A stretch of 35,220 bases of DNA from Erysipelotrichales bacterium (GCA_022508565.1 JAFLUY010000013.1:1-35220); one strand, 5' to 3'. Positions 5,071 through 23,387 are shown, counted from the first letter of the stretch. The notes: generated from the letters alone by a model not told the origin. A program made the numbers and translations.

Positions 5071-5144
5071 TGGCAGGGGATGAGAGAATCGAACTCCCAA
5101 CTAAAGTTTTGGAGACTCCTATTATACCATTTAACTAATCCCCT
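5071..5144 (-). tRNA. tRNA-Trp (anticodon CCA)
   Basis: The minus strand folds as a complete 74-base cloverleaf: acceptor AGGGGAT/ATCCCCT (perfect), anticodon loop CTCCAAA with CCA at 5112-5110, T loop TTCGATT, discriminator G and an encoded CCA end. The anticodon stem GGAGT/ACTTT has two adjacent G-U pairs at its outer end, which is unusually weak. It has its own promoter and terminator. Anticodon CCA reads UGG only, which agrees with TGA being used as stop here. Confidence 0.95.
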
Positions 5145-5169
5145 AAATATAATTTTTGCTAACGAAATT

Positions 5170-5198
5170 ATTTTAGCATATTATTTTTCTTGTTTCAA
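5170..5198 (-). promoter_or_regulatory. Promoter of tRNA-Trp
   Basis: On the minus strand: TTGAAA (5198-5193), 17-base spacer, TAAAAT (5175-5170), with TG one base before the -10. Transcription would begin about 20 bases before the mature 5' end. Confidence 0.75.
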
Positions 5199-5241
5199 CA
5201 ATTATATTCTTAAATTTATTTATCAAAAAAATCATGTTTTA

Positions 5242-5250
5242 TGTTATTAT
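5242..5250 (+). promoter_or_regulatory. Extended -10 promoter of the aminotransferase gene
   Basis: TGTTATTAT (TG-n-TATTAT) lies 25 bases before the start at 5275. It is divergent from the tRNA-Trp promoter about 50 bases away. Confidence 0.55.
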
Positions 5251-5274
5251 ATATACAAAAAAGGAATGGTAATT

Positions 5275-7335
5275 ATGCTAAAAAAATCTGAAGCTATTGA
5301 TAGACTACTAAGAGAAAATCCTGAATTAGGCCAAAGAAGATTTGGATTACCAGATATTGGTAAGAGGATTGATGGAGATTTTTTTAATCCAACAGTTCAA
5401 GCAATAGCTGATGCAATTGACTTTTATGGATATGAAGTAAGAGATGAACTTATAACAGTTTTAAAAGATATCGATTTAGGTGGAGGCAATCCAACTAATT
5501 TTAAACCTTTTCCTTTATCGATAAAAAGAATGAAGGAATCGTTAGATCATTCCCTAATGTTTAAATATCCTTATACAGAAGGTGATGACAACATTAGAAA
5601 AATTTTACTTGATTATGTTGAAGAACTAGGTTTTATAAATGATCATCCATATTCCTATGAAGACATTGATGATAAAGGTTTATGCGTTCATAATATTACA
5701 TTCTTACCATCAACATCTATCGCGTTTAATTATATTATCAATATTATTGCAAAGCCAGGAGATGTAATTTTAATCCCAGGACCAAACTATGGCTTATTTA
5801 CAATACGTGCAGAAAGAGCAGGAGCAGAGGTTGAAATATTACCACTTTCTAAAGAAGATAAATGGCTTGTTAATCCAGAAAAACTAGCCGCAAAAATTGA
5901 CGACATAAATGAATCATTACAAAAAGTTTATAATAGAAGAAAAGGTTATGTTCCAAGAGTAGTAGCTTTTTTAAATACTAATCCATCTAATCCAACTGGT
6001 AAAGTTATGGGCGAGTCTGAAGTAAAAAGACTAGAAGCTATTTCTAAGGTATGTTTAGAAAGAGGAACATTTGTAATTGATGATTTAGTTTACCGTGATC
6101 TTGTTTTTGATGAAAAAAATATAGCAAAACCAATTTCAACAATACCTGGGTCTTTTAGAAATACAATTTCATTATTTGGTTTATCAAAAAGTTATGGACT
6201 TGCTTCCCTACGTGCCGGTTTTGTTGTAGCTGATGAAATAATTATTAGAGAACTTATAAATAGAATATTCCAAGGTATGGATTCAGCACCTGATATAGTT
6301 GGACAAGCACTTGCTGGAGCTTATAATATAACTGAAGAAAGAAAAAAAGTTTATAATGAATATTTTACTGAATTAAGGGATATTTACAGATATAAATATA
6401 ATTTACTTGTTTCATTAGTTAGTGGAATTGATGCAGTAGATCCTAAATATAAAGAAAGAGTATTAAATACAATTAATTCATCAGGATTAGAAAAAAAAGA
6501 AATAAAGAAATTATTAGAAGGAATGCCTTATGTTGAAATTCCTGAAAATTTAATTCCAGATGCCGGTTTCTTTGTAATGTTAGATTTCACTAAGATAAAG
6601 GGTATGAAATATAAAGGAAGCATCATTAATACGGAAAGAGATTTACTTAAATTCTTCTATAAAACATGTCGTATAAGATTTCTAATTGGTCAATCAATAT
6701 CTTGGCCAAACGAAGAAGAATTAATTGGTCGCGTTACTTTTGCATTAGAAGATGACCTAATGATAAATGCTTTTAAATTAATGAGTGATGCATTAACTAA
6801 ATTAATGCCAGGCGATGAATATATGATTCGTAAGAATAGATTAGAAGATCAAGAACAAATGGCGCATATTAAAGTGGATGGATGGCGCAATGCCTACGAT
6901 AATATTGTTTCTGCAAAATATTTAAAATCATTAGATTATCAGAAACAAACAGAACGTTATATTGCATCATTTGAAGAATACAAAGATTTAGTAATTGTAG
7001 CTGTTAAGGGTGATGAGGTTTTAGGTTACTCTTGCTACGATATAAAAGAAAATGAAAAATATGACTCTGAACTTGTGAGTTTATATATTAAACCAGATTT
7101 TTTAAATAAAGGAATTGGCTCATCTTTATTAAAAGAAACAGCCAAGATACTTTATGAAAGAAATTGTAAGAATATGATTATCTGGTGTTTTAAAGACAAT
7201 GAAAACGCCAAAAAATTCTATAAGGAATTGGGTGGAAACATTGTTGAAGAAAAAGTTGCTTTAATTGGCGATGAATCTTATGAAGAGGTATGTTTCTATT
7301 TTGATTTAGAATTCTTAAATGAAAATCCGTTCTAG
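5275..7335 (+). CDS. Fusion protein: PLP-dependent class I/II aminotransferase + GNAT acetyltransferase
   Basis: A 686-aa two-domain protein. Residues 1 to ~510 are a fold-type I aminotransferase: LNTNPSNPTGK near 237 (cofactor-binding Asn), VIDDLVYRDL near 268 (Asp and Tyr), GLSKSYGLASLRAG with the PLP-binding Lys near 305, and GRVTFAL near 485 with a likely carboxylate-binding Arg. Its length (families are usually ~400 aa) and N-terminal part resemble the aspartate aminotransferase/aspartate 4-decarboxylase type. Residues ~516-686 are a GNAT domain: GWRNAYDNIVSA near 537, the acetyl-CoA-binding segment YIKPDFLNKGIGSSLL near 600, and NENAKKFYKELGG near 640. Start: ATG 5275 has AAGGA nine bases upstream; a longer frame would run through the tRNA. 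A pathway making an amino acid or amine and then acetylating it is plausible; the substrate is unknown. Confidence 0.88.
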   Translation: MLKKSEAIDRLLRENPELGQRRFGLPDIGKRIDGDFFNPTVQAIADAIDFYGYEVRDELITVLKDIDLGGGNPTNFKPFPLSIKRMKESLDHSLMFKYPYTEGDDNIRKILLDYVEELGFINDHPYSYEDIDDKGLCVHNITFLPSTSIAFNYIINIIAKPGDVILIPGPNYGLFTIRAERAGAEVEILPLSKEDKWLVNPEKLAAKIDDINESLQKVYNRRKGYVPRVVAFLNTNPSNPTGKVMGESEVKRLEAISKVCLERGTFVIDDLVYRDLVFDEKNIAKPISTIPGSFRNTISLFGLSKSYGLASLRAGFVVADEIIIRELINRIFQGMDSAPDIVGQALAGAYNITEERKKVYNEYFTELRDIYRYKYNLLVSLVSGIDAVDPKYKERVLNTINSSGLEKKEIKKLLEGMPYVEIPENLIPDAGFFVMLDFTKIKGMKYKGSIINTERDLLKFFYKTCRIRFLIGQSISWPNEEELIGRVTFALEDDLMINAFKLMSDALTKLMPGDEYMIRKNRLEDQEQMAHIKVDGWRNAYDNIVSAKYLKSLDYQKQTERYIASFEEYKDLVIVAVKGDEVLGYSCYDIKENEKYDSELVSLYIKPDFLNKGIGSSLLKETAKILYERNCKNMIIWCFKDNENAKKFYKELGGNIVEEKVALIGDESYEEVCFYFDLEFLNENPF

Positions 7336-12600: not shown

Positions 12601-12821
12601 TTTCTGGAGTTTTAGGAATCGCGATTTCTTACTCATTTATACCAATAATTAATGGAATATTGCATAAATTTACGGGAAATATTCCATTATCTGCAACACT
12701 TGCAATTAATCATGCAATAATATTAATTGTTTTAGCGATTATCTTAACATTAATTGGCGGATTAATACCATCTCGTATGGCAAGTAAAAAAGATCCAGTT
12801 GAAGCTTTAAGAACTGAATAA
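9693..12821 (+). CDS. MacB-type ABC exporter, ATPase and permease in one chain
   Basis: A 1042-aa protein. Residues 1-~225 are an ABC ATPase of the LolD/MacB type: Walker A LGPSGSGKTT near 37, signature LSGGQMQRVA near 142, Walker B ILADEPTGALD near 162 and the H loop MVTHN near 195. A basic linker (~228-250) leads to the first membrane helix (~265-290). A large outer domain of ~630 residues follows, then three membrane helices (~915-1035) in an FtsX domain ending PSRMASKKDPVEALRTE. This is the MacB/FtsX mechanotransmission layout, which works on substrates at or outside the membrane. The outer domain is larger than in classic MacB (~200 aa), as often seen in gut Bacillota. AGGAGGGG precedes the ATG, and a hairpin terminator follows. 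Substrate unknown; bacteriocin or host-peptide export, or a signalling role, are options. Confidence 0.92.
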   Translation: MLDLKGISKIYKTAGLTQKALDKVSVSFRENEFTSILGPSGSGKTTLLNIIGGLDEYTSGDLIVNDVSTKKFKDRDWDSYRNHRVGFIFQSYNLITHQTILRNVELALTLSGISKNERRKRALNALKEVGLEKHVHKKPNQLSGGQMQRVAIARALVNDPEIILADEPTGALDSDTSVQIMNLLKKISEDKLVIMVTHNPELAEEYSSRIIKIKDGKIISDSHPYNGKSKKKVSKENIDAKTKKTKMSYITALSLSFNNLMTKKARTLLVSIAGSIGIIGIALILAVSTGFQNYVDSIQEDTLTSYPLSIQQESTDITSVLLSMTAGDNEGASGNEVKEQQYITSMLSSVSTNDLKSFKEYFEKNYKNKDKDLSNVEYAYSVDPNIYTIDATKKLARVNPSSLFSSMWGSNNIMSSYSSMASIFTQMVDNREEIKKDYDVLAGRWPEKYDEMMIVLSEPNSISDLLVYSLGLRDTDELSKMITSVMSGETVDITNEPLTLSYDDLLNVDLRLVMPADTYKYNSKYDVYEDMTNDEKFMNKLYDKATRLKIVGVVAAKEGISASPLSPGVAYTSELIDYIIDYSEETDVVKKQLKNSEINVFSGNRFDSNKNSFDFEFTDLVKVDNKKLQSAFNINIDQETLEKETQKYMAEINDAITTDITPAKKMFSDNLNIFAKDLLDRINEKNSSTDIDILISNYLSSDDAKKALSKMESEYVIPVEALKTAYAGLLKVPLSGYLAAYNPDFSENILKPIKENIISQFTESALVTGTVETMAKTMMEAKIKKIVLTKVGELTSNLTSSFAAAFNVDEKKIASAFTLNFSEDELARVVNAMMNPSETTQKTNLITLGYQDREEPTYILFYFNSFDGKENFISFIDNYNEKVDEEKEIKYTDATGILMSSVKTIVNAVSYVLIAFVSISLVVSSIMIGVITYISVYERTKEIGILRAIGASKGNISSIFNAETFIIGLLSGVLGIAISYSFIPIINGILHKFTGNIPLSATLAINHAIILIVLAIILTLIGGLIPSRMASKKDPVEALRTE

Positions 12822-12850
12822 AAAATTACATAGAAATATGTAATTTTTTT
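12821..12850 (+). terminator. Terminator of the MacB-type exporter unit
   Basis: AAAAATTACAT (12821-12831) pairs with ATGTAATTTTT (12838-12848), followed by more T. Confidence 0.8.
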
Positions 12851-12902
12851 ACATATTTTTATGTCAAAAATTATCATTAATACATCTTCATTTATAAAGA
12901 CA

Positions 12903-12937: not shown

Positions 12938-14647
12938 ATGAGTAAAGTTTTATCTTATGAAAAATTTCTTAATCATGATAATTTTTATACTCAAGAAGAA
13001 TTAATTAATCAATTTGGATCTCCAGTTAGTAGTAGTTTTACATCTTCTTTAGTTATTAAAAACGAAGATTTATTTTTGGAATATAAAAACGAAGACTTAA
13101 TATCAGTAAGTGAAGAAAAAAAGGTTAGTAAAAAATTAATACATGATATATTAAGTGATGAAGGAATGTTTAGATACATTCAAACTAATTTAAATAATTC
13201 ATCAGGTGTAGTTTTAAAAATTGATTATATGATGGATGCTAACCCTGTTTCTTCAATTACATTAACTAAAGCAGAATTAATAACTGCAATTAATCAAATA
13301 ATGAATGATCTTTCACAAAAAGAAAAAATGCGTTTTGCTTTTATTGAAAGTATATCACGCACATATTCATGTGAACAAAAATACAATGACTATACACATG
13401 AAGTCTTTGTCGATGGTTTGAAACTGGGAATACCAGCTTCAACCTTATTAAAAATAATAACTTGTGATGAAGAAACTTTTAATAACTTTTTAAATGGTTC
13501 AATAAACTTTGGCTATGATAAAGAATGTTTAGCTTTTGCATTAGTAGATTTTGTTGCACGTGAAAGAATCTTTGAAAAATTTGAATTTAAAGCTTCAACT
13601 ATTCAAAGATTTAATAAAATCCGCGATTTCTCCTTAATAGATTTTGAATCATTAAATCAAAATAGATCAAAAAATGATATTGGTAGAAATGGTGAAAGTG
13701 TACTAGAAAAAATAAATCTATCAGATGAACTTATGGCTTACTTAGATAAAGAAATGGATAAAACATATTCAAAATTTGAAAAGTCCGTATATTATTATTT
13801 AAAGTTATGTGAAGCATTAACTTATGATGCAAATTATTTTTTATCTTCATCACCAGAGCTTTTAGAAAACCATGAGAATACTGAATATATTAATTCAATA
13901 AGCACAACTAATAATGAAATAACTAAATATGATTTTACAATGATATTTGCTAGCATTTTATCAAAACTGCAAATTGATTTTACATTAGATCAAAACCTAG
14001 TGGCTGGAATTAACTCTAATGCACCTATGCTAACTTTTAGATATGGTGAATATTTAATTTCCTTAACTTCTTTTGAAAATCCTGACAGAAGTGATTTATT
14101 AAATGTTAAGATTAATGATGAAATAATTAATTTAACATGCATAAATAAAAATGAATTCACAAGAAATAAATTTAAAGAATTATTAAATCGTATTTATAGC
14201 AATATAACTAGAGAAAAAGCAAATGCTAAAGCATTTAAAGAATCACTAGAAAATTATAATAGTAGAAATAATATAAATGAAGTATCTATTCAAGAAAAAT
14301 TAAGAATTCTATTATTAGAGATAAATCGAACTAATTTAAAAGGAATAGACGCTATCGGTTATGTTAAAAAAATCATACAAAATATATTTTCTAATACCAA
14401 TCGAGTTAAATTAAATTATCTATGCAAAGAATCAAAGAGAAACTATTTAACTCCAGTAACAATAATTTCCGTTTTAAATGATGATGGATATGTATATTAT
14501 ATGATTGATCATACAAATCCAAATGGTGTAATGGAATTATCCAAAGAACAAGTAACAAGTGTATTAGGTTTAGGCGGAATGTATTATATAGATGATAATA
14601 GAATTCCCGGAATAAATAACTTTGTAGGTGAAAAATATGTTAGATAG
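12938..14647 (+). CDS. Uncharacterised 569-aa protein with a degenerate transglutaminase-like region
   Basis: No signal peptide or membrane helix. Residues ~285-395 have the layout of bacterial transglutaminase-like domains: YYLKLCEALTYDANYF (family pattern ylkLc..l.YD..yF), a helix at ITKYDFTMIFASILSKLQI where the catalytic Cys normally starts the helix, then strands ending YLISLTSFENPDRSDLLNVK (family pattern y..DlT....DL..vK.G). The expected Cys, His and Asp are not at those places, so if the assignment is right the domain is inactive and may bind rather than cut or cross-link. The rest is not recognised; the C-terminal part (~505-545, YVYYMIDHTNPNGVMELS) may be a small beta domain. First gene of a four-gene unit; its end overlaps the next start by 11 bases. 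Confidence 0.75.
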   Translation: MSKVLSYEKFLNHDNFYTQEELINQFGSPVSSSFTSSLVIKNEDLFLEYKNEDLISVSEEKKVSKKLIHDILSDEGMFRYIQTNLNNSSGVVLKIDYMMDANPVSSITLTKAELITAINQIMNDLSQKEKMRFAFIESISRTYSCEQKYNDYTHEVFVDGLKLGIPASTLLKIITCDEETFNNFLNGSINFGYDKECLAFALVDFVARERIFEKFEFKASTIQRFNKIRDFSLIDFESLNQNRSKNDIGRNGESVLEKINLSDELMAYLDKEMDKTYSKFEKSVYYYLKLCEALTYDANYFLSSSPELLENHENTEYINSISTTNNEITKYDFTMIFASILSKLQIDFTLDQNLVAGINSNAPMLTFRYGEYLISLTSFENPDRSDLLNVKINDEIINLTCINKNEFTRNKFKELLNRIYSNITREKANAKAFKESLENYNSRNNINEVSIQEKLRILLLEINRTNLKGIDAIGYVKKIIQNIFSNTNRVKLNYLCKESKRNYLTPVTIISVLNDDGYVYYMIDHTNPNGVMELSKEQVTSVLGLGGMYYIDDNRIPGINNFVGEKYVR

Positions 14648-14849
14648 ACTAAGAAAACAATGTGATGATTTATTAAGCACTGATGTAGAAAAATATATGA
14701 CAATTTCTAATATTTTAAAAAATGATAATTGCTTTTTTGAAATGGACATTGACACGGCTTACAAAATATTAGAAGATTTAAATGTTAAAAAAGAAGATAT
14801 CAGCAAAGTATATTTAGATTTAATAAAAATAGAAAATTATAATGACTAA
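14637..14849 (+). CDS. Uncharacterised 70-aa protein
   Basis: A small, acidic, helical protein starting MLDRLRKQCDDLL. The ATG lies inside the end of the previous gene, with AGGTG six bases upstream, a normal sign of translational coupling. No WxG motif or other hallmark of secreted small helical proteins is present. The function is unknown. Its size and coupling would fit a small partner or adaptor of the 569-aa protein or of the ATPase two genes downstream. Confidence 0.7.
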   Translation: MLDRLRKQCDDLLSTDVEKYMTISNILKNDNCFFEMDIDTAYKILEDLNVKKEDISKVYLDLIKIENYND

Positions 14850-14858
14850 GGAGTATTT

Positions 14859-15224
14859 ATGAAATATCCAACTATTGTAAGAGACACAATTGACTTTATA
14901 AGTGATACAGAAGTATGTAATATCGGATACGCTGAAGGAAAATTAAGAGATTCACGTCCCTACAGACTTGAAGTATGGTCATCCTATGGCATTACGAATG
15001 CAACAATTTTTATTTCTTTAATTGATTTAGAAGAAAAATCAGAAGATGACATAAAAAGAATATTAATAGATAATAATATCATTGAAGTAATAAAAGATGA
15101 TATTTATATTACAGAAGTAGAAGATACAAAAGATAATTCATTCCTTTCTATAAATGTCCCTTTAGAAGGTAGTGATGTAACTATTAATAAATTACTTGTT
15201 AAAATTAAAGATTTTGAATTCTAA
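14859..15224 (+). CDS. Uncharacterised 121-aa protein
   Basis: A soluble protein with alternating strands and helices (alpha/beta), not recognised. The most distinctive segment is RPYRLEVWSSYGITNATIF near residue 33. AAGGAG lies upstream of its ATG, nine bases after the previous stop, and the next gene starts ten bases after its stop. It ends KIKDFEF. No catalytic motif is visible. Confidence 0.72.
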   Translation: MKYPTIVRDTIDFISDTEVCNIGYAEGKLRDSRPYRLEVWSSYGITNATIFISLIDLEEKSEDDIKRILIDNNIIEVIKDDIYITEVEDTKDNSFLSINVPLEGSDVTINKLLVKIKDFEF

Positions 15225-15234
15225 TGGAGGTTTT

Positions 15235-15996
15235 ATGGATTTCAAAGAAATAATAAAAAGCAACTTAGAAAAAGATAAACTAGTTTTAGGTTATAATGAA
15301 GATAAAAAACTTATTTGTGATATAAAAAAAGATAGCTCGATAATTATAACTGGAGAAACTGGTTCAGGCAAATCGATCTTGCTTGATCAAATTTTGCTTG
15401 AATTAATTTCCGAATTTAATTCTCTTGAAATGAATTTAATGTTAATAGATACATCGGGTGTTGAATTAAATTATTATCATGACACTAATTATGCAACTTT
15501 TAGTGCTATAAATGATATAGATAAATCAGTAGTTGCTTTATCTCGTGTTTTAAAGGAAATTGAAACAAGAAAGAATTTGCTTAATGAAGCAAAAGTATTA
15601 ACTGTTGATGAATACAATGAAATCAATGAAATCAATGAAGAAAAAATACCACTTTTAGTTGTAGCAATTGATGATGATAAATTATTACTAAGGGAAGCAG
15701 ATGTTGAAAAAATGTTATCAGGAATAATTAGCCAATTGAATGGTTTAAATATTCTTGTTATACTTGCTACAAGTGATGTCTTTAATAAATTTTTTGAAAC
15801 AGATATTAATACGTTAGCATCTTTACTTATTTCATTTGATTATACTAATGAACTGGAAAGCAAGAAGAATAATATTCAGGGCTCACAAAACTTAAGCATT
15901 GGTGAATTTTTAGCAAGAAGGCAAGGTACTGTTGAAAAATATCAAAACTTTGATTTTGATGATAACTTAATAAAAGAAGTATTAAGGATTGATTAA
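15235..15996 (+). CDS. Stand-alone FtsK/SpoIIIE-like ATPase domain
   Basis: A 253-aa protein made almost only of the FtsK motor core. Walker A IIITGETGSGKSILL is near residue 37; LIDTSGVELNYY near 69 corresponds to FtsK's D-x-K-x-x-E-L-x-x-Y; VLKEIETRKNLLNEAKV near 104 corresponds to the M..R......a..R helix; and IPLLVVAIDDDKLLL near 139 is Walker B, where FtsK has VVIDE. A strand NILVILATSD near 171 matches the following strand of the fold. There are no membrane helices and no DNA-reading gamma domain. The Walker B Glu is Asp here, so hydrolysis may be slow. GGAGG precedes ATG 15235. It could pump DNA or protein, or act as a secretion-type coupling ATPase for its neighbours. Confidence 0.78.
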   Translation: MDFKEIIKSNLEKDKLVLGYNEDKKLICDIKKDSSIIITGETGSGKSILLDQILLELISEFNSLEMNLMLIDTSGVELNYYHDTNYATFSAINDIDKSVVALSRVLKEIETRKNLLNEAKVLTVDEYNEINEINEEKIPLLVVAIDDDKLLLREADVEKMLSGIISQLNGLNILVILATSDVFNKFFETDINTLASLLISFDYTNELESKKNNIQGSQNLSIGEFLARRQGTVEKYQNFDFDDNLIKEVLRID

Positions 15997-15999
15997 AAA

Positions 16000-16024
16000 A
16001 GACTACTAAATAGTAGTTTTTTTT
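16000..16024 (+). terminator. Terminator of the first unknown-cluster unit
   Basis: GACTACTA (16001-16008) pairs with TAGTAGT (16011-16017), with an eight-T run. Confidence 0.75.
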
Positions 16025-16032
16025 GTTATAAT
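16024..16032 (+). promoter_or_regulatory. Extended -10 promoter of the 527-aa gene
   Basis: TGTTATAAT begins at the end of the terminator T run, and AAAGGAGG is about 20 bases further on. Confidence 0.7.
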
Positions 16033-16061
16033 AAAAGATGTAAAAGTAAAGGAGGATAAGT

Positions 16062-17645
16062 ATGGAAAAAATAGACATAATTAAAGATATTGAACAACTT
16101 TTTCCAAGCGAATTTAAAGATGCGACTATTCTTTTTAAAGATACTTATGTTCCTTTATATGATTTCTTAGAGCATGACTTTATTAAATTTGTCCGTGATA
16201 ATGCAAATGTTGAAGATTTAGTTAAATATATAAGAAATAATTTAAGTACAAGAATAAGATTAAAATCAGTTGAAGATTTTATAAGTGGAAACAAAATGTT
16301 TATTGATGTAATTCAAATAAGCCAAGATGAAGTGACTTCAGTAAGAGAATTTTTAAATTCATATTGTGTTCAAAATATGACTAGTGAAGGAAAAATCAAC
16401 TACCCACCTAATAGAACAGTTGAAATAGAAGAATTATATAAAAAAGTGCTAGAAAACACTTATTATGGACCAACAATCCAAGATAAGGCAGAGTTATGTA
16501 TTAATCTTGCTCATTATATTGACAAAGAAATACTTGATTCGATTATGGATGGTATGGATATAACTGTTTGGGATTATATTACAAAAGTTATTCCAACTAT
16601 GATGTCATCAATATCTGTAGTAAGCATCAAAGATGAAAAAGGTGATAGAGAAATTGATGTTGAAAAATTTGTAGTTCAAATAGTTGACCATCAAGCTAAG
16701 TATTTATCCGATAAAAAAGCTAAGGAAAAAGAAGATTTAGAAAATAAATATAATAAAACTAGCGATAACCCAGGATTAGTAAGTGAGATTCAAGTAAAAC
16801 TGGAAGAGGATAAGACGCTTACTGTTACTGCCGAAATACCTGTGCTAAATTCAAGTTTGCTTACAGATGAAGAGAAAAATTCATTACTTAATAATTATGT
16901 TAAGATGGAAAGCATCACAAATGAGGAATACTTAAGCACTGAATTAAATAGAATAAAAATTGCAATAGATAACGCTAACACAGCTCATGACTTAGATAGC
17001 ATTAGTTCATTCTTTAAAACAATTATTAGTAGCATAAATAGAGAAAATACTTCATCACATATTAATCAACTTATTATTTCAATAGATGAATTAATTATAT
17101 CTAAACGTAATAATCTTATAAAGGTTAGCGGCAACCAAGAGTATTATACAGACGCCTTATTCAGTGAGATAAATAGAATGAGAGAAGAATTAAGCGGATT
17201 TACAACTTTAGACCAATTTAGTTCGTTATATGGATGTGCATTAGATCGCTATGAAGAAGTATTAAATAAAGGCATTAAAGATATTCAGTTAAAAAGTTCA
17301 TTTGCTCAATTATTTAAACTAATAAATGAAAAAAGACTTAATTTAGACGCAACTATGGCTGATCAACCACCTGAAGTTGAAAGAGCTAAGGTTGATTTAA
17401 ATGCTTTAATAACTGATATTAAAAAAGATGTCTTAACTATTGAACATGATGCAAATAACTTAGGAAATCTAACTGGTACAGAAATACGTTTAAATTTAAA
17501 TATTCAAAAAGCTAAAGAGCAAGTTGAAAGAGCTTACATTGATGGCTTGCTAACTGAAGATGATCGTGAATATTATATGTATAGATTAAAAAATTTCTCT
17601 ATGGCAATACAAAGTGAAACTAAAATAGGGTTTGGAAAAAATTAA
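16062..17645 (+). CDS. Uncharacterised 527-aa helical protein
   Basis: A soluble, acidic, almost wholly helical protein. A highly charged stretch with coiled-coil character (DKKAKEKEDLENKYNKTSD, near residue 218) separates an N-terminal half from a beta-like patch (LTVTAEIPVL, ~248) and a long helical C-terminal half. The C-terminal half (about 290-520) reads like helical repeats with regular Leu/Ile spacing. No catalytic motif, signal peptide or membrane helix is visible. A strong ribosome site (AAAGGAGG) precedes the ATG, and the next gene begins ten bases after its stop. A scaffold or binding role would fit, but this is only a guess from composition. Confidence 0.75.
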   Translation: MEKIDIIKDIEQLFPSEFKDATILFKDTYVPLYDFLEHDFIKFVRDNANVEDLVKYIRNNLSTRIRLKSVEDFISGNKMFIDVIQISQDEVTSVREFLNSYCVQNMTSEGKINYPPNRTVEIEELYKKVLENTYYGPTIQDKAELCINLAHYIDKEILDSIMDGMDITVWDYITKVIPTMMSSISVVSIKDEKGDREIDVEKFVVQIVDHQAKYLSDKKAKEKEDLENKYNKTSDNPGLVSEIQVKLEEDKTLTVTAEIPVLNSSLLTDEEKNSLLNNYVKMESITNEEYLSTELNRIKIAIDNANTAHDLDSISSFFKTIISSINRENTSSHINQLIISIDELIISKRNNLIKVSGNQEYYTDALFSEINRMREELSGFTTLDQFSSLYGCALDRYEEVLNKGIKDIQLKSSFAQLFKLINEKRLNLDATMADQPPEVERAKVDLNALITDIKKDVLTIEHDANNLGNLTGTEIRLNLNIQKAKEQVERAYIDGLLTEDDREYYMYRLKNFSMAIQSETKIGFGKN

Positions 17646-17655
17646 GGGTGATATT

Positions 17656-18066
17656 ATGAATGATGAATATAATGAATTATATAATATGTTATCAACTGAT
17701 CGTGACGAAGTAAGAAAAATCAAAGATGCTTATCAACAAGATATAAGTTTACTTGTTGGAAAGATTAGAAGTTATCATATAAATAATGTTGATATATCAA
17801 CAGACTATGATTTAGAGAATAACTTTGATAAATTTAAAGTTGATGATTCTTATTTAAGATATAAATTAAATAATGATGCTATTGAATATAAAATTTCATT
17901 ATTAGAAGGTTATTTAGCAGATTTATTTGCTGAAAAAAAGTTTAATAATTTTCGCCGAGAAAAAGAAGAGAAACTTACAAAAAGTGAGTATCTAGAATAT
18001 ACACATAATCCAAGTGTTAAAAGTGATAAGATTGCTCAATGGTATCAAGAATTTATGCAAAAATAA
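17656..18066 (+). CDS. Uncharacterised 136-aa helical protein
   Basis: A charged, soluble, helical protein, unknown to me. It starts MNDEYNELYNMLSTDRDEV, has a basic-acidic segment NFRREKEEKLTKSEYLEY near residue 105 and ends IAQWYQEFMQK. AAGGGTG lies before ATG 17656, just after the stop of the 527-aa gene, so they form one unit ending at the terminator at 18065. Confidence 0.72.
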   Translation: MNDEYNELYNMLSTDRDEVRKIKDAYQQDISLLVGKIRSYHINNVDISTDYDLENNFDKFKVDDSYLRYKLNNDAIEYKISLLEGYLADLFAEKKFNNFRREKEEKLTKSEYLEYTHNPSVKSDKIAQWYQEFMQK

Positions 18067-18092
18067 ACTAGTTTAAATAAACTAGTTTTTTT
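18065..18092 (+). terminator. Terminator of the second unknown-cluster unit
   Basis: Two copies of the self-complementary AAACTAGTTT (18065-18074 and 18079-18088) four bases apart, so they can pair with each other. A T run follows. Confidence 0.8.
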
Positions 18093-18136
18093 GTTTAAAA
18101 TAAACGTAAATATTAACAACAATTAGCATATTTATG

Positions 18137-18166
18137 TTGACCTCAAATATTGTTTAATACTATATT
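18137..18166 (+). promoter_or_regulatory. Promoter of the membrane protein / ABC half-exporter unit
   Basis: TTGACC (18137-18142), 18-base spacer, TATATT (18161-18166), 35 bases before the start codon. It has a real -35 box and no TG extension, unlike most promoters here. Confidence 0.55.
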
Positions 18167-18200
18167 TAAAATAGATAAATATAATCAAAGGAGTAGTAAT

Positions 18201-19379
18201 ATGAAGATTAGTAACATTTTTATTGGTGGTTGGTTTCAAAGAACTATGCTACAACTATCAGAAATTTATGATTTTTTAAGAGAGGGAAAAAGCCAACTTA
18301 ATTTAGATCAAGAAAAATTGGCAGAGTTACACAAAGCATTACAAATTGGGAAAATTGATTATGGAGTTGCAGGCGAAGAATATATTGAGTTCACAACTGC
18401 ATTAAATATAAATGTTAAATTATTTGAAGATGGACTTATTACACTAAATAATCATAATGTAAGTGAAGATACATTATTTGCAGATATTAATCATGTAACA
18501 GACTATTATGAAAATAAATTGTCGCCTGCTTTATCTTATCTTTTTAGTTTAGGTGCACCAATACCTAAAGAACTAGCAAATATTGAAACAATATATCCAT
18601 ATTTCATTACATGTGAAAAAGCTACAAAAGATCAAATAAATGAACTGTTATCGAGAACAGAAAAACAAAAATATTTTGAATTTAAGAATAATAAATATGA
18701 TGTTGTTCGTGGAGATAAATACTATTTTATTAACAATAAAACTCAGTCATTAGTTAACATTGAACGTTATATAGAAGAACAAATATTTATTCGTGAATTT
18801 AAAGGTCAATTACATAGATATTTAAATATCCATAGAATTATTTGGGAAAAAATTGATGAAGTAAAAGACAATGCCCAAGTTAGAGGAGCAGATATAGTTA
18901 AGTTTAATAGTAAATTAGATGGTTATGCAAAAACTATTAATCTAATTAATGGACGTATTAATCAAATGGGAACTTATATATCTACTCGTGAAAAAATTGC
19001 AAAAAGCGATAAAGAACTAGAGGAATTCTTAAATATCAGTGGATATCGTTATGAAACATTACGAGATACATTAGAATATATAAAACATATTTGGACAATG
19101 ACAAAAGAATATGTAGCATCTGCTCAAAAATTATTTAGCGGATTAAAACAAGATGTAACTAGTAATTCAATTAATAGTTTAACTATAGTTACATCAATGA
19201 GTGCTGGAGTTTCAATCATTACATTACTTACAAAAACTCAGCCAGAGTTTACTACATTTGGTTTATTATATTTCTTTGTTTTAGCATTTATAGTGTTAGC
19301 TGCTAATAAAATAATTAGTTTAATAGCTAGAAAGAGAAAATATTCAGTTAATGATATTGAATATGAAAAAGACATTTAA
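18201..19379 (+). CDS. Uncharacterised 392-aa protein with two C-terminal membrane helices
   Basis: The N-terminal ~200 residues look alpha/beta. A long helical stretch follows (~205-320, with a possible coiled coil around GRINQMGTYISTREKIAKSD). Two membrane helices end the protein: one at about 331-350 (starting NSLTIVTSMSAGVSIITLL) and one at about 357-378. A basic tail follows. This order, a soluble alpha/beta domain, long stalk helix and two C-terminal helices, is the layout of CorA-type channels and of RMD1/DUF155 proteins. However, the CorA loop motif GMN is absent, so no ion transport claim is made. AAAGGAG precedes ATG 18201; an upstream frame start lacks a site. The ABC exporter gene starts five bases after its stop, so the products probably work together. 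Confidence 0.75.
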   Translation: MKISNIFIGGWFQRTMLQLSEIYDFLREGKSQLNLDQEKLAELHKALQIGKIDYGVAGEEYIEFTTALNINVKLFEDGLITLNNHNVSEDTLFADINHVTDYYENKLSPALSYLFSLGAPIPKELANIETIYPYFITCEKATKDQINELLSRTEKQKYFEFKNNKYDVVRGDKYYFINNKTQSLVNIERYIEEQIFIREFKGQLHRYLNIHRIIWEKIDEVKDNAQVRGADIVKFNSKLDGYAKTINLINGRINQMGTYISTREKIAKSDKELEEFLNISGYRYETLRDTLEYIKHIWTMTKEYVASAQKLFSGLKQDVTSNSINSLTIVTSMSAGVSIITLLTKTQPEFTTFGLLYFFVLAFIVLAANKIISLIARKRKYSVNDIEYEKDI

Positions 19380-19384
19380 TACTT

Positions 19385-21118
19385 ATGAAAAGATATTTTG
19401 ATATATTTAAAACAATGCTACGCATTGCTAATAAGCATAAATTTATGGTAGTTCAAATGTTTATAAGTTGTTGTATTTATAATGTTTCAAGTCTTCTTCC
19501 ACCAATTGCAACTGCTGGCATAATTGCTGTAATTTCTGCTAAAAATTTTAATGGAATATGGATCTATGTATTAATGTATATGATTTTTTACATAATGTAT
19601 TTTGGTTTCTTGCATTGGAATTATTTTACATATACTCATCTTGCAGATTATTATCATCTAGAAGTTCAAAGAGATTTATTTAACCATATTTCTAACAATG
19701 AAACTATATTTAATAAAATGTCTAAGGGAAAAGTTATTGAAACTTGCAGTGATGACATTCGCTATTTAGTAGATATTATGGATTGTGCTTCCGAAGCTTT
19801 AATGGGCGTTATAAAATTAATCGTTATATTTGGTATATTTTGTTATTATAATATATTTGTTGGACTTTTTGCTATCGTGCTTGATTTATTATATTTAAGT
19901 TTAATGAATGATAATTCTAAAAAAGTATCAAAATATTATGAGGGTACACGTAAATACGAAGATAAAGTGATGGATATCTTCAACCAAATGTTAACCAATC
20001 TAAAACAAGTAAAAAGCTTAAATATGATGGAACAACTAGATAGTAAACTTGATAAAACAAGAAAGAAATGGAAAGAACAATATAAAGGAAAAAGAAAAAA
20101 TCTAACAGCAAGATATTGTATTATCCCATATATTGTTTATATAGGTAAAATACTACTATATATATTCTTAGGGTATTTAGTTATTAATGGAAGTATGTCT
20201 TTAGACAAACTTGTATTATTAATTAGTTATTTTGAGATGACTATAACTGTTACTGATAAAATGTTAGATTATTTACTTAATTTAAGTAATTATGGAATAC
20301 GCTTAAATCGTATTGCTAATATCTTAGACTATTCTAGTGATAGAGATATAGATTATGGAGAAATTGACAATGATTACATTAATGGAACAGTAGTATTCCA
20401 AAAGGTTAACTATGAAATTAAGGGTAAAAAGATTCTTAATAATGTATCATTTAAAGTATATCCAAATGAAATAACTGCTATAGTAGGTAAAAGCGGTTCA
20501 GGTAAATCAACGATTATTAATTTGCTTTATAGACTAGATAGAATTAAATCAGGTAGCATTTTAATTGATGATGAAAGTATTTATAATTACACAAAAAAGG
20601 TATACTCATCAAATGTCTCTGGAGTTTTTCAAAAACCTTTCATGTTTGAAATGAGTATTAAAGATAATCTATCATTAATTGATTCAAATATAGCTAGACA
20701 AATAGAAGCATGTAAAAGAGTTGGAATGCACGATTATATTGAGTCATTACCAAAAGGGTATAATACTATTATTAATGATGAATCTAATTTATTTTCAGAA
20801 GGTCAAAAGCAATTATTAGTAATTGCAAGAGCATTACTTACTAAATCAGAAATACTTTTATTTGATGAAGTAACAAGTAATATTGGTTTTGAAGCTACGA
20901 CTATGGTAAGCACTGTTCTAAATGACTTAAAAAGCGATCATACAATTATGTTAGTTACTCATAAACCAGAAATTATGAGTTTAGCAGATCGTGTAGTAGT
21001 TTTAGATAAGGGATCTGTAGTAGCTAAAGGAAAAAATAAAGATGTATTAGAAAAATGTTCTTTATATCAAGAACTAACTACTAGAACTTTTGCTAGTGTT
21101 AGTCAAGAAAACATTTAA
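19385..21118 (+). CDS. ABC half-exporter (membrane domain + ATPase) with atypical motifs
   Basis: A 577-aa protein in the usual exporter order: about six membrane helices in residues 1-310, then the ATPase. Walker A GKSGSGKST is near 369 and Walker B ILLFDEVTS near 490 keeps the catalytic Glu; the H loop VTHKPE is near 521. The signature is FSEGQ instead of LSGGQ, and the D loop reads SNIG where SALD/SNLD is usual, so the dimer may be asymmetric or slow. No second half-transporter is nearby, so it would be a homodimer. There is no N-terminal peptidase domain. No ribosome site is visible before its ATG, only five bases after the previous stop, so translation probably depends on the upstream gene. 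Substrate unknown. Confidence 0.88.
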   Translation: MKRYFDIFKTMLRIANKHKFMVVQMFISCCIYNVSSLLPPIATAGIIAVISAKNFNGIWIYVLMYMIFYIMYFGFLHWNYFTYTHLADYYHLEVQRDLFNHISNNETIFNKMSKGKVIETCSDDIRYLVDIMDCASEALMGVIKLIVIFGIFCYYNIFVGLFAIVLDLLYLSLMNDNSKKVSKYYEGTRKYEDKVMDIFNQMLTNLKQVKSLNMMEQLDSKLDKTRKKWKEQYKGKRKNLTARYCIIPYIVYIGKILLYIFLGYLVINGSMSLDKLVLLISYFEMTITVTDKMLDYLLNLSNYGIRLNRIANILDYSSDRDIDYGEIDNDYINGTVVFQKVNYEIKGKKILNNVSFKVYPNEITAIVGKSGSGKSTIINLLYRLDRIKSGSILIDDESIYNYTKKVYSSNVSGVFQKPFMFEMSIKDNLSLIDSNIARQIEACKRVGMHDYIESLPKGYNTIINDESNLFSEGQKQLLVIARALLTKSEILLFDEVTSNIGFEATTMVSTVLNDLKSDHTIMLVTHKPEIMSLADRVVVLDKGSVVAKGKNKDVLEKCSLYQELTTRTFASVSQENI

Positions 21119-21146
21119 AAAAGCACTAATTAAAAGTGCTTTTTTC
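21117..21146. terminator. Bidirectional terminator between convergent genes
   Basis: AAAAAAGCACT (21117-21127) / AGTGCTTTTTT (21135-21145), a perfect stem with a T run on both strands. Confidence 0.85.
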
Positions 21147-22328
21147 TTTATATAAAATATCTATATCAACATCTCCATTGATACCATCAACCCTTCCAAC
21201 GTTACTCATTTGCCATAAGAAGTAATCTCCCTCATAGTTAGTGTTGCTGATATAATGAGCAAGCCAAATCGGATAATTCATAGTGGTATCCCAAATGTTT
21301 TCTAAATAGAATTTACTACTATAAAGCATAGTTTCATAGCCAGCAGCCTTTATAGTTTTAGCAAATGCTTCAAATGTCTCATTTAAATCATGAATGCTTA
21401 TTCCATATTTTCTAAATTTATTCCAATTTTCCCAGTCAAATGCTATTGGGAAATCAAGTTGTTCCCCATTTAGAGTTTCAAGCGTCCATTTTGCATGTTC
21501 TATTGCTGTATCTACATTTGTTGCAGTTGTATAAACATAAACACCAACCTTCAAACCAGCGTTTTTAGCAGCTTCTATATTTTGGGCAAAATAAGAATCT
21601 ACAGAAATATCCTTATCAATATCGGAATTAATACCCATTCTCATAATAACAAATTCTACCCCTGCGTTTTTTACTTTTTCAAAATCAATATTTTCTTGCC
21701 ATCTTGAAACATCAATTCCGATCATGGTATGTTCAGTTTTCTTATCTTCTATTACAGTGCTTATTGGCAAAGTAACTTTGTTTGTAGTAGAACTATTACT
21801 TTTAGATATTTCATCTACAACATTGACTCTTAAATTTTTCTTAGTTTCATTATTAGAACTATCTTTAATTATATAACTTACATGATAAGTTCCGACTGTA
21901 GTTAAATCATAAAAACCTTCTATCTCACAAGTTGGCTCACGATCATAATTATCACCAAAGACAATTTCATCACATGGATAATAATCATCATTAACTTTTA
22001 TAGTTCTACTAGTAGCAGCACTTATAAAAATGGGTGCAGTTTTATCTATTACTTCATAATTAACTTTAAGTTTATATTTTCTCTTTTCGTATTTATATTC
22101 AATAATTAATTCTTTTTTACCAATAATATCTGTAGTAATATTAGCATTCTTTGTTAGTATTTCCGTATTAGTATCTTTAATTAAATCATAAATATGTGCT
22201 TCTTCATAAACTGTTATCTTTTTCTCTTCTGTATTTAAATAAGCATCTTCTGGCATCTTGTATTCATCATAACCACATCCAGATAATAAAAAACATGTAA
22301 TTAAAAGAATTATAAATCTCATAAACAT
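21126..22328 (-). CDS. GH25 lysozyme-family lipoprotein
   Basis: A 400-aa protein beginning with a short lipoprotein signal ending FLLSGC (Cys ~18), so it should be a lipid-anchored surface protein. Residues ~90-175 contain an Ig-like DUF5011-type domain (DKTAPIFISAATSRTIKV; ...DLTTVGTYHVSYIIKDSSNN). From ~200 to the end is a GH25 muramidase: MIGIDVSRWQENIDFEKV with the first catalytic-region Asp, and FPIAFDWENW with the D-x-E pair. It should cut the peptidoglycan glycan chain, which implies the cell has a wall. GTG 22331, ATG 22328 and ATG 22322 are all possible; none has a ribosome site, and the -10 box is so close that the mRNA may start at the start codon. The gene is convergent with the ABC half-exporter. 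Confidence 0.9.
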   Translation of the reverse strand: MFMRFIILLITCFLLSGCGYDEYKMPEDAYLNTEEKKITVYEEAHIYDLIKDTNTEILTKNANITTDIIGKKELIIEYKYEKRKYKLKVNYEVIDKTAPIFISAATSRTIKVNDDYYPCDEIVFGDNYDREPTCEIEGFYDLTTVGTYHVSYIIKDSSNNETKKNLRVNVVDEISKSNSSTTNKVTLPISTVIEDKKTEHTMIGIDVSRWQENIDFEKVKNAGVEFVIMRMGINSDIDKDISVDSYFAQNIEAAKNAGLKVGVYVYTTATNVDTAIEHAKWTLETLNGEQLDFPIAFDWENWNKFRKYGISIHDLNETFEAFAKTIKAAGYETMLYSSKFYLENIWDTTMNYPIWLAHYISNTNYEGDYFLWQMSNVGRVDGINGDVDIDILYKEKSTFN

Positions 22329-22333
22329 CACTA

Positions 22334-22400: not shown

Positions 22401-23387
22401 ATGATGACAGAAGAGATAAAATTAGACTTAACAAATTATATAAAAGATGACTCATTTAACTTAAATGATGAAGTTAATGAAGTGACTGAACTGGAAATCG
22501 AAAAAGTTAAATTAATTATAAACCACTTGAGTCAAATGGGAATTAAAAGTGTTTTAATCACAGGTGCAGAAAATATAGATAACTTTACTTTAGGAACTAT
22601 AGTTTTGCGTATAAAAGAAAAAGGGATAAATCAAATAAAACTATATACAAGGGAATATGCAACACAAGAATATTTAGATTTTATAAATCAGTTAAGAAAC
22701 TTAGGTTTAACGGAGGTAATCTATTCATATCCAGTTTCTTGGTATCAAGAAAATGCCATGAGAACAATTAATAATTTTGAAAATACTGAAATGTTAAGAT
22801 TAAATGCTTACACTGGTATTATTGGCGAATATGGCGAGTTTTTTGATTATATAAAGAAATTATATACTCATAACCTTGCAGACGATAAGAAAGATGAAAT
22901 ACTAAACCTTGCTCCTAATGAACTAGGAGATTTAGTGTGGTATTTATCGACATCTTTAGCTTTATGCTATGATTACTCACTAAACGAAATTTATTCTCAT
23001 ATTATAGATCCTAGCAATACTCCTAAACAAAATAGTTATGATATTAATTTAATAGATGACTATATAAGAAATTATGAAGGCATTAATATAGCTGATGTTA
23101 TGATGAATTTCAAAAGAATACTTAATAAATTAGATGAAATAGAGTCTAAAGAATCTGCAATTGAAGCGGTTTCAAAAGTCTTAATTGAAATTGCTAGTAT
23201 AGCTAGATTCTTATTTAATAAGAACTTAAGCGAAATTTTAGTAAGTAATATTGAAAAATTAAGAAAAAGATATCCAACTGGTTTTGATATAGACAAAGCA
23301 AATGAAAGAATAGATGCTAATAAAAAATACAAAGAAGAAGATGGAATGAAAGTTAGAAACCTAACTAGCATTGATACTAAAAACTAA
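22401..23387 (+). CDS. MazG-type nucleotide pyrophosphohydrolase with an extra N-terminal alpha/beta domain
   Basis: A 328-aa protein. Residues ~130-310 form a MazG-like all-alpha domain: GIIGEYGEFFDYIKKL near 138 and NELGDLVWYLSTSLAL near 174 (EExxE/ExxD-type metal ligands), and NIEKLRKRYPTGFDIDKA near 284. An insert of ~60 residues separates the last two blocks; MazG domains are normally continuous there. Residues 1-~125 are a separate alpha/beta domain. Its helix-strand run (EVNEVTELEIEKVKLII, GIKSVLITGAENIDN, GINQIKLYTREYA) recalls the half-barrel of radical-SAM proteins such as MoaA, but there is no CxxxCxxC. The enzyme should remove pyrophosphate from a nucleoside triphosphate, for housecleaning or regulation. 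The ribosome site is weak (GGGA ten bases upstream). Confidence 0.82.
   Translation: MMTEEIKLDLTNYIKDDSFNLNDEVNEVTELEIEKVKLIINHLSQMGIKSVLITGAENIDNFTLGTIVLRIKEKGINQIKLYTREYATQEYLDFINQLRNLGLTEVIYSYPVSWYQENAMRTINNFENTEMLRLNAYTGIIGEYGEFFDYIKKLYTHNLADDKKDEILNLAPNELGDLVWYLSTSLALCYDYSLNEIYSHIIDPSNTPKQNSYDINLIDDYIRNYEGINIADVMMNFKRILNKLDEIESKESAIEAVSKVLIEIASIARFLFNKNLSEILVSNIEKLRKRYPTGFDIDKANERIDANKKYKEEDGMKVRNLTSIDTKN

Follow-up and report, generated by a model that had tools for sequence, protein, structure and literature searches.

A conserved six-gene cluster with a degenerate FtsK-type ATPase and a predicted transglutaminase-like pseudoenzyme in two genera of gut Bacilli

We analysed a stretch of 35,220 nucleotides from an Erysipelotrichales bacterium (GCA_022508565.1 JAFLUY010000013.1:1-35220; hereafter the window), which is contig 5 of a 1.69-Mb genome (G000). 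Eight adjacent genes, A to H, lie on the same strand in three units (unit 1, A-D; unit 2, E-F; unit 3, G-H), and an earlier note on this DNA had proposed that all eight form one system. We found that A-F (12938-18066) is one conserved, lineage-restricted and uncharacterised cluster, seen so far in two genera of gut Bacilli, and that G-H is an independent cassette that lies after F and is unrelated to it. Our preferred reading, to which we give a probability of roughly 40%, is that the A-F products, joined in some relatives by that of a further gene (fam10), form a cytoplasmic complex in which D is a nucleotide switch and which serves the assembly or export of surface proteins, as gene neighbourhoods in relatives suggest. 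The features of the region are as follows.

A, 12938..14647, plus strand: 569-aa cytoplasmic protein with a predicted transglutaminase-like fold at residues ~250-405, Cys/His/Asp triad lost (putative pseudoenzyme).
B, 14637..14849, plus strand: 70-aa protein, ATG at 14637, partner of A.
C, 14859..15224, plus strand: 121-aa protein, essentially only in the two genera that have D-E-F.
D, 15235..15996, plus strand: 253-aa stand-alone FtsK/EssC-type ATPase domain, ATG at 15235.
Hairpin, 15998..16026, plus strand: terminator-like, with T-tail, after D at the end of unit 1 (15990-16032 in the folding test, z -4.9).
E, 16062..17645, plus strand: 527-aa protein, fast evolving; beta-hairpin-helix modules make up its N-terminal part, and its C-terminal half is long and helical.
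F, 17656..18066, plus strand: 136-aa protein, ATG at 17656, well conserved in the genus, where it is a partner of D and E.
Hairpin, 18060..18094, plus strand: terminator-like, with T-tail, after F at the end of unit 2 (18056-18096 in the folding test, z -4.4).
G, 18201..19379, plus strand: 392-aa protein, ATG at 18201, with two C-terminal membrane segments; part of a GNAT-G(-H) cassette, outside the A-F locus.
H, 19385..21118, plus strand: 577-aa ABC half-exporter that travels with G, outside the A-F locus.
Hairpin, 21117..21145, both strands: terminator-like, with T-tail, between H and the convergent GH25 gene (21110-21150 in the folding test, z -4.5).
GH25, 21126..22331, minus strand: muramidase-family lipoprotein, convergent neighbour; an anchor directly after F (or E) in relatives.

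The genus of the window comprises nine genomes. Eight of them had an orthologue of D, and each time E and F followed it (D-(fam10)-E-F). The intervening fam10 gene was present in five genomes; the window lacks it. Six species had A-B-C-D-E in collinear order, namely G000, G151 and G148, together with G043, G276 and G183 from a second genus, and F accompanied the five genes in G000, G151, G148 and G043. G276 and G183 carry short genes in place of E (326 aa, or 139 and 213 aa), which did not match E in phmmer and which, going by position and appearance, we take to be E; no F was seen ahead of GH25 in these two genomes. Shorter pieces of the cluster were found at contig ends in G149 (C-D-E-F) and G346 (E-F). 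In G145, A-B-C lies close to a contig end and D-fam10-E-F opens a second contig; because the outer neighbours of both contig ends match those of the window, the simple reading would be one interrupted locus. E occurred in 8 of 288 genomes of the order, F in 9 of 386 genomes of the family and C in 8 of 291. All genomes with C, E or F came from the two genera, except for isolated weak matches, and a scan of contigs from across GTDB with F as query added nothing to this set. The related records are from uncultured Bacilli or Firmicutes, one of them from a deer cecum. The distant matches, of E in G404 and of F in G225, were single and weak, and the G404 neighbourhood held no cluster gene. The literature search found no report of this gene combination.

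Considering that other genes around the locus (GH25, CpXC, ABC-F, TrmL and others) are also syntenic, so that background synteny is high, collinearity alone is weaker evidence than it appears. The shared narrow distribution of C, E and F and a change in A carry more weight. A and B are a conserved gene pair, which also occurs without D-F in other genera. In the AlphaFold model of A (mean pLDDT 85), residues ~250-405 aligned with members of the transglutaminase-like superfamily (VIA-align, Z ~5-7.8), each match being weak on its own. This region was apparent in the predicted fold only: Foldseek gave no match to the fold with E ≤ 0.001, a Pfam scan of the whole A family gave chance-level matches only, and sequence-profile searches of the PDB with A gave nothing credible. 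The weak fold matches are supported by the Cys, His and Asp that the family conserves. The complete triad was found in 11 of 12 A proteins from genomes without D-F, and the twelfth has the Cys and His. By contrast, all eight A proteins of the locus type, from both genera, have lost it (G000, G151, G148, G043, G145, G146, G276 and G183; the G043 sequence is partial), with K, A and T at the triad positions in the window. A tree placed four triad-less proteins of this type in one clade with support of 100/100. Second A-B pairs elsewhere in G149, G148 and G151 (L162, L163 and L166), genomes that also have A-F (C-F in G149), retain the triad, so its loss follows the type of locus and not the genus. 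A appears to be a member of the transglutaminase-like family that has lost its triad, and of the transglutaminase-like region proposed earlier for the 569-aa protein, the fold stands as a prediction and the catalytic residues do not.

These observations bear on the most serious alternative, in which A-B-C, D-E-F and the surface genes found nearby in relatives have separate functions and simply share a stable chromosomal stretch of the two genera. We regard it as somewhat unlikely. It draws on the synteny of the unrelated anchors, on the many genomes with A-B pairs and no D-F, on G150, in which C and the adjoining surface gene S1 lie ~10 kb from D, and on the separate terminators of the units. 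The terminators that the earlier note assigned to the units are backed by a hairpin at each unit end, a further hairpin with a T-tail precedes A (12812-12856, z -5.2), and all four folded better than every shuffle. That each unit has its own promoter is unproven, because promoter-like matches in the region were no commoner than in shuffles (68 versus 71.2 ± 6.6). Separate functions do not readily account for three findings: C, E and F share one narrow distribution, the active site of A is lost in the same set of loci, and the A-B-C-D-E order is kept although the sequences have diverged strongly and although, in G043, an insertion separates C from D. The first two suggest adaptation to new partners.

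E is fast evolving, with 22-54% identity to the window copy; the corresponding ranges are 41-89% for F and 43-84% for C. The model of E has N-terminal beta-hairpin-helix modules and a helical C-terminal half, and a fold search with it found no convincing structural relative. Matches to YlaN and similar helical bundles (Z 11) were not used, as the tool warns that such matches are common for helical proteins, and hhalign gave no support for a repeat common to A and E or to E and F. At curated cut-offs, Pfam and NCBIfam scans left A, B, C, E, F and G without a match; a Pfam scan of the whole E family yielded chance-level matches only, and PDB sequence-profile searches with C, E and F nothing credible. 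The fam10 protein resembles a degenerate methyltransferase (a weak match in a PDB sequence-profile search). A lone relative of F (E 1.4e-7) is encoded in G006 (L112:7783-8256) near SUKH-type-immunity-like proteins, without D or E. In G148, a cassette of TelA, AAA_5 ATPase and DUF7192 genes lies between an ABC-FtsX gene and A (L089:3970-9532).

A system for conflict or for defence against phages, with an FtsK-like ATPase at its core, would fit the fast evolution of A and E, the weak similarity of D to SspH and mad8 in PADLOC, the TelA/AAA cassette beside the locus in G148 and the likely immunity genes near the F relative in G006. We nevertheless consider it distinctly unlikely. The cluster occupies a fixed chromosomal site in eight of the nine genomes of the genus, whereas defence islands are typically mobile. 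None of its proteins is a nuclease or another effector whose active site is intact; A is dead. PADLOC gave ATPase-type matches for D and H alone and none for A, B, C, E, F or G. In a PHROGs scan of the eight proteins, those same six had weak matches at most; neither collection supplies cut-offs. As to a mobile origin, E had no match in a phage collection, F and C had none in viral contigs, and A and G had none in plasmids.

D matched Pfam FtsK_SpoIIIE (6e-18), with EssC as its best NCBIfam match (1.7e-17), and aligned with structures of FtsK and of a TcpA-type coupling protein. We aligned D with the FtsK of the window genome and with EssC-type proteins of the genus, and compared its motifs in 11 orthologues. 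Walker A is intact (GETGSGKS in the window, GETG[SAT]GKS in 11/11), and a GGAGG-type site precedes the ATG at 15235. D also keeps the D-x-x-x-VEL stretch. Walker B reads IDD[DN] in every orthologue (IDDD in the window) in place of hhhhDE, with Asp for the catalytic Glu. The FtsK motifs MARAAG and ATQRP are likewise replaced in all 11, by QLNGLN and ATSDV or similar sequences; where FtsK has MARAAGIHLIVATQRP, D has QLNGLNILVILATSDV, with changes at the arginine-finger and DNA-gripping positions. In PaFtsK the arginine finger is Arg620 and the DNA-gripping residue of loop II is Arg632 (PMC9410874), and their 12-residue spacing would place them in MARAAG and ATQRP, respectively. Given these replacements, D is probably a nucleotide-binding switch or slow ATPase and not a processive DNA motor. 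The Walker B motif of AAA+ proteins is written hhhhD[E/D] (PMC9436818), and since Asp stands at this position in some ATPases, residual hydrolysis by D is possible. The family has other short FtsK-like proteins (in G018, G034, G092 and G099), which retain DE and likewise lack the two arginines. A 1,525-aa EssC-type protein is encoded in G145 (G145:C2, L187:4369-8946) and similar long frames in G148, G150 and G151; with D as query, none was found in G000.

The earlier description of D as a stand-alone soluble motor therefore holds for the FtsK/SpoIIIE domain and is doubtful for the motor, as D has none of three FtsK residues: the catalytic Glu, the arginine finger and the arginine that grips DNA. 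The same changes make it very unlikely that the cluster is a DNA-handling machine for segregation, recombination or transfer, a reading to which the Pfam assignment and the structural alignments of D would otherwise lend themselves. At 253 aa, D is only large enough for the P-loop core. Furthermore, a Pfam scan assigned none of the cluster proteins to a relaxase, recombinase or DNA-binding family, and the window genome already has a full-length FtsK of its own (a 743-aa frame at C34).

In some relatives, the locus includes genes that point to the envelope. Downstream of C, G043 and G145 encode S1, S2, S3 and S4 in this order; G146 has the same series, except that S2 was not seen there. S1 has a membrane segment, a Thr-rich stretch and a small terminal domain, and an S1-type protein adjoins C or D in G043, G145, G146, G150 and G021. 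S4 has a signal-peptide-like start. After S4 comes a giant protein, of at least 1,629 aa in G145 and at least 1,220 aa in G146, that begins like S4; Pfam identified Listeria-Bacteroides (InlB-type) repeats in the G145 protein, and G043 encodes a 2,017-aa relative on another contig. Across the three giant secreted proteins of this repeat type (L164:12112-17000, L165:1-3660 and L185:2732-8785), the first ~125 residues match the small S4, which is encoded beside two of them.

These neighbourhoods are the basis of the surface role in the preferred reading, in which A-F would form a cytoplasmic complex. The complex would be built from the A-F products, with the degenerate methyltransferase-like protein added in some relatives. 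D would switch with the nucleotide it binds instead of driving DNA, in analogy to the degenerate FtsK-type domains found in EccC/EssC. The helical scaffolds would be E and F, and A-B would be an adaptor derived from a former enzyme. Hydropathy gave no membrane segment in A, B, C, E or F, none at the N terminus of D and one borderline segment (1.68) within its ATPase core. The complex would most likely act at the envelope, where it may control the assembly or export of the surface proteins that share its locus in relatives. A more specific version appears unlikely, namely that A-F is a new kind of envelope machine of gut Bacilli in which a stand-alone, FtsK-derived nucleotide switch, an adaptor that is a dead transglutaminase-like protein, and C, E and F together govern how Thr-rich stalk proteins and giant proteins of the InlB-repeat type are displayed or exported.

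Several points weigh against the complex and its role at the envelope. Physical interaction of the A-F products is a prediction, and most of the genomes compared are fragmented metagenome-assembled genomes. S4-type proteins were not found in G000, G151, G149, G148, G147 or G150, so the envelope role is suggested by the neighbourhood in some relatives; as G000, G151, G148 and G149 have A-F or C-F, the S4 surface genes are not obligatory. In the window genome, A-F must use another client or have another role. The GH25 lipoprotein adjoins F or E in ten relatives, but it may be a mere chromosomal neighbour, since CpXC, ABC-F and TrmL are syntenic too. The Glu-to-Asp change in D need not abolish ATPase activity, and neither A nor E fits any solved structure well. 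The earlier suggestion of export or surface assembly thus gains some support from the membrane and surface genes of relatives, with the ABC exporter no part of it.

The exporter belongs with G. G was found in 51 of 243 genomes of the family, mostly at 60-85% identity, and G-H occurs widely in the family without A-F. A GNAT acetyltransferase gene lies ahead of G in all ten loci examined (L134-L143), over which the mean column identity of G is 81%; an H-like ABC half-exporter follows in four of the ten and a diverged version in a fifth. In eight relatives, F and GH25 are -4 to 67 bases apart, compared with 3,059 bases in the window, where G-H occupies the space. In G151, the contig that carries the locus also has the G gene, but at a distance of ~20 kb and in the opposite orientation. 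Between genera, G is 75% (G090) and 66% (G087) identical, as against 53% and 51% for FtsK, in the two genomes comparable for both. That G is far more alike than FtsK points to horizontal transfer. The two-helix membrane protein and the atypical ABC half-exporter of the earlier note were borne out: G has two C-terminal membrane segments, and H has several membrane segments, transmembrane and ATPase domains, and the signature FSEGQ instead of LSGGQ. An eight-gene export machine with the exporter as its channel has adjacency and a common strand in the window in its favour and is extremely improbable, being contradicted as a general system by the spread of G-H without A-F, usually with a GNAT gene, by its absence from the orthologous site in eight relatives and by the distant G gene of G151; at most, it could apply as a recruitment of G-H specific to the window. 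The earlier note took independent scattering of the units in related genomes as grounds for refuting a single system, and by that standard its grouping fails for unit 3.

Two other observations concern the window outside the region. A tRNA-Trp gene (5071-5144, minus strand) overlaps the called start of a 751-aa open reading frame (5080-7335), whose orthologue in G145 (L164:532-2586) has 684 aa; the true start is therefore probably ~200 bases downstream. A 328-aa open reading frame with a weak radical-SAM match (22401-23387) lies between GH25 and CpXC; relatives including G151, G145, G043 and G346 do not have it there.

Together, these data describe, in an uncultured gut lineage, a conserved locus made up of genes that lack a curated family, and separate it from an unrelated transporter cassette that had seemed part of it. 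Two of its proteins, an FtsK-type ATPase and a predicted transglutaminase-like enzyme, have lost catalytic residues, and these losses are fixed in one locus, which makes it a testable case of enzymes becoming switch and scaffold parts. The A-F locus alone does not settle any long-standing question.

Four known systems offer comparison. H resembles ABC half-exporters (PRK13657/MsbA-like) in its transmembrane and ATPase domains, but falls far below the curated cut-offs of the named families, differs in its signature and is a member of the G-H cassette. In the predicted fold, residues ~250-405 of A align weakly with members of the transglutaminase-like superfamily (arylamine N-acetyltransferases, Streptococcus pyogenes TglA, LapG and PeiP), whose Cys, His and Asp are retained by relatives of A outside the locus and missing from the locus proteins of both genera. 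D shares Walker A, the D-x-x-x-VEL stretch and the P-loop core with FtsK/SpoIIIE DNA translocases; unlike them, it has no membrane, alpha or gamma domain, the Pfam match covering the P-loop core alone, and it has Asp for the catalytic Glu and other residues at the positions taken as Arg620 and Arg632. With respect to the EccC/EssC proteins of type VII secretion, D differs as a single stand-alone domain without a membrane or FHA region, and no Pfam or NCBIfam match to WXG100 or other Ess components was found among the eight proteins. EssC is nevertheless the best NCBIfam match of D, and the likeness extends to the degenerate FtsK-type domains (D2/D3/DUF) of EccC, for which structural or gating roles have been proposed (PMC11154593).

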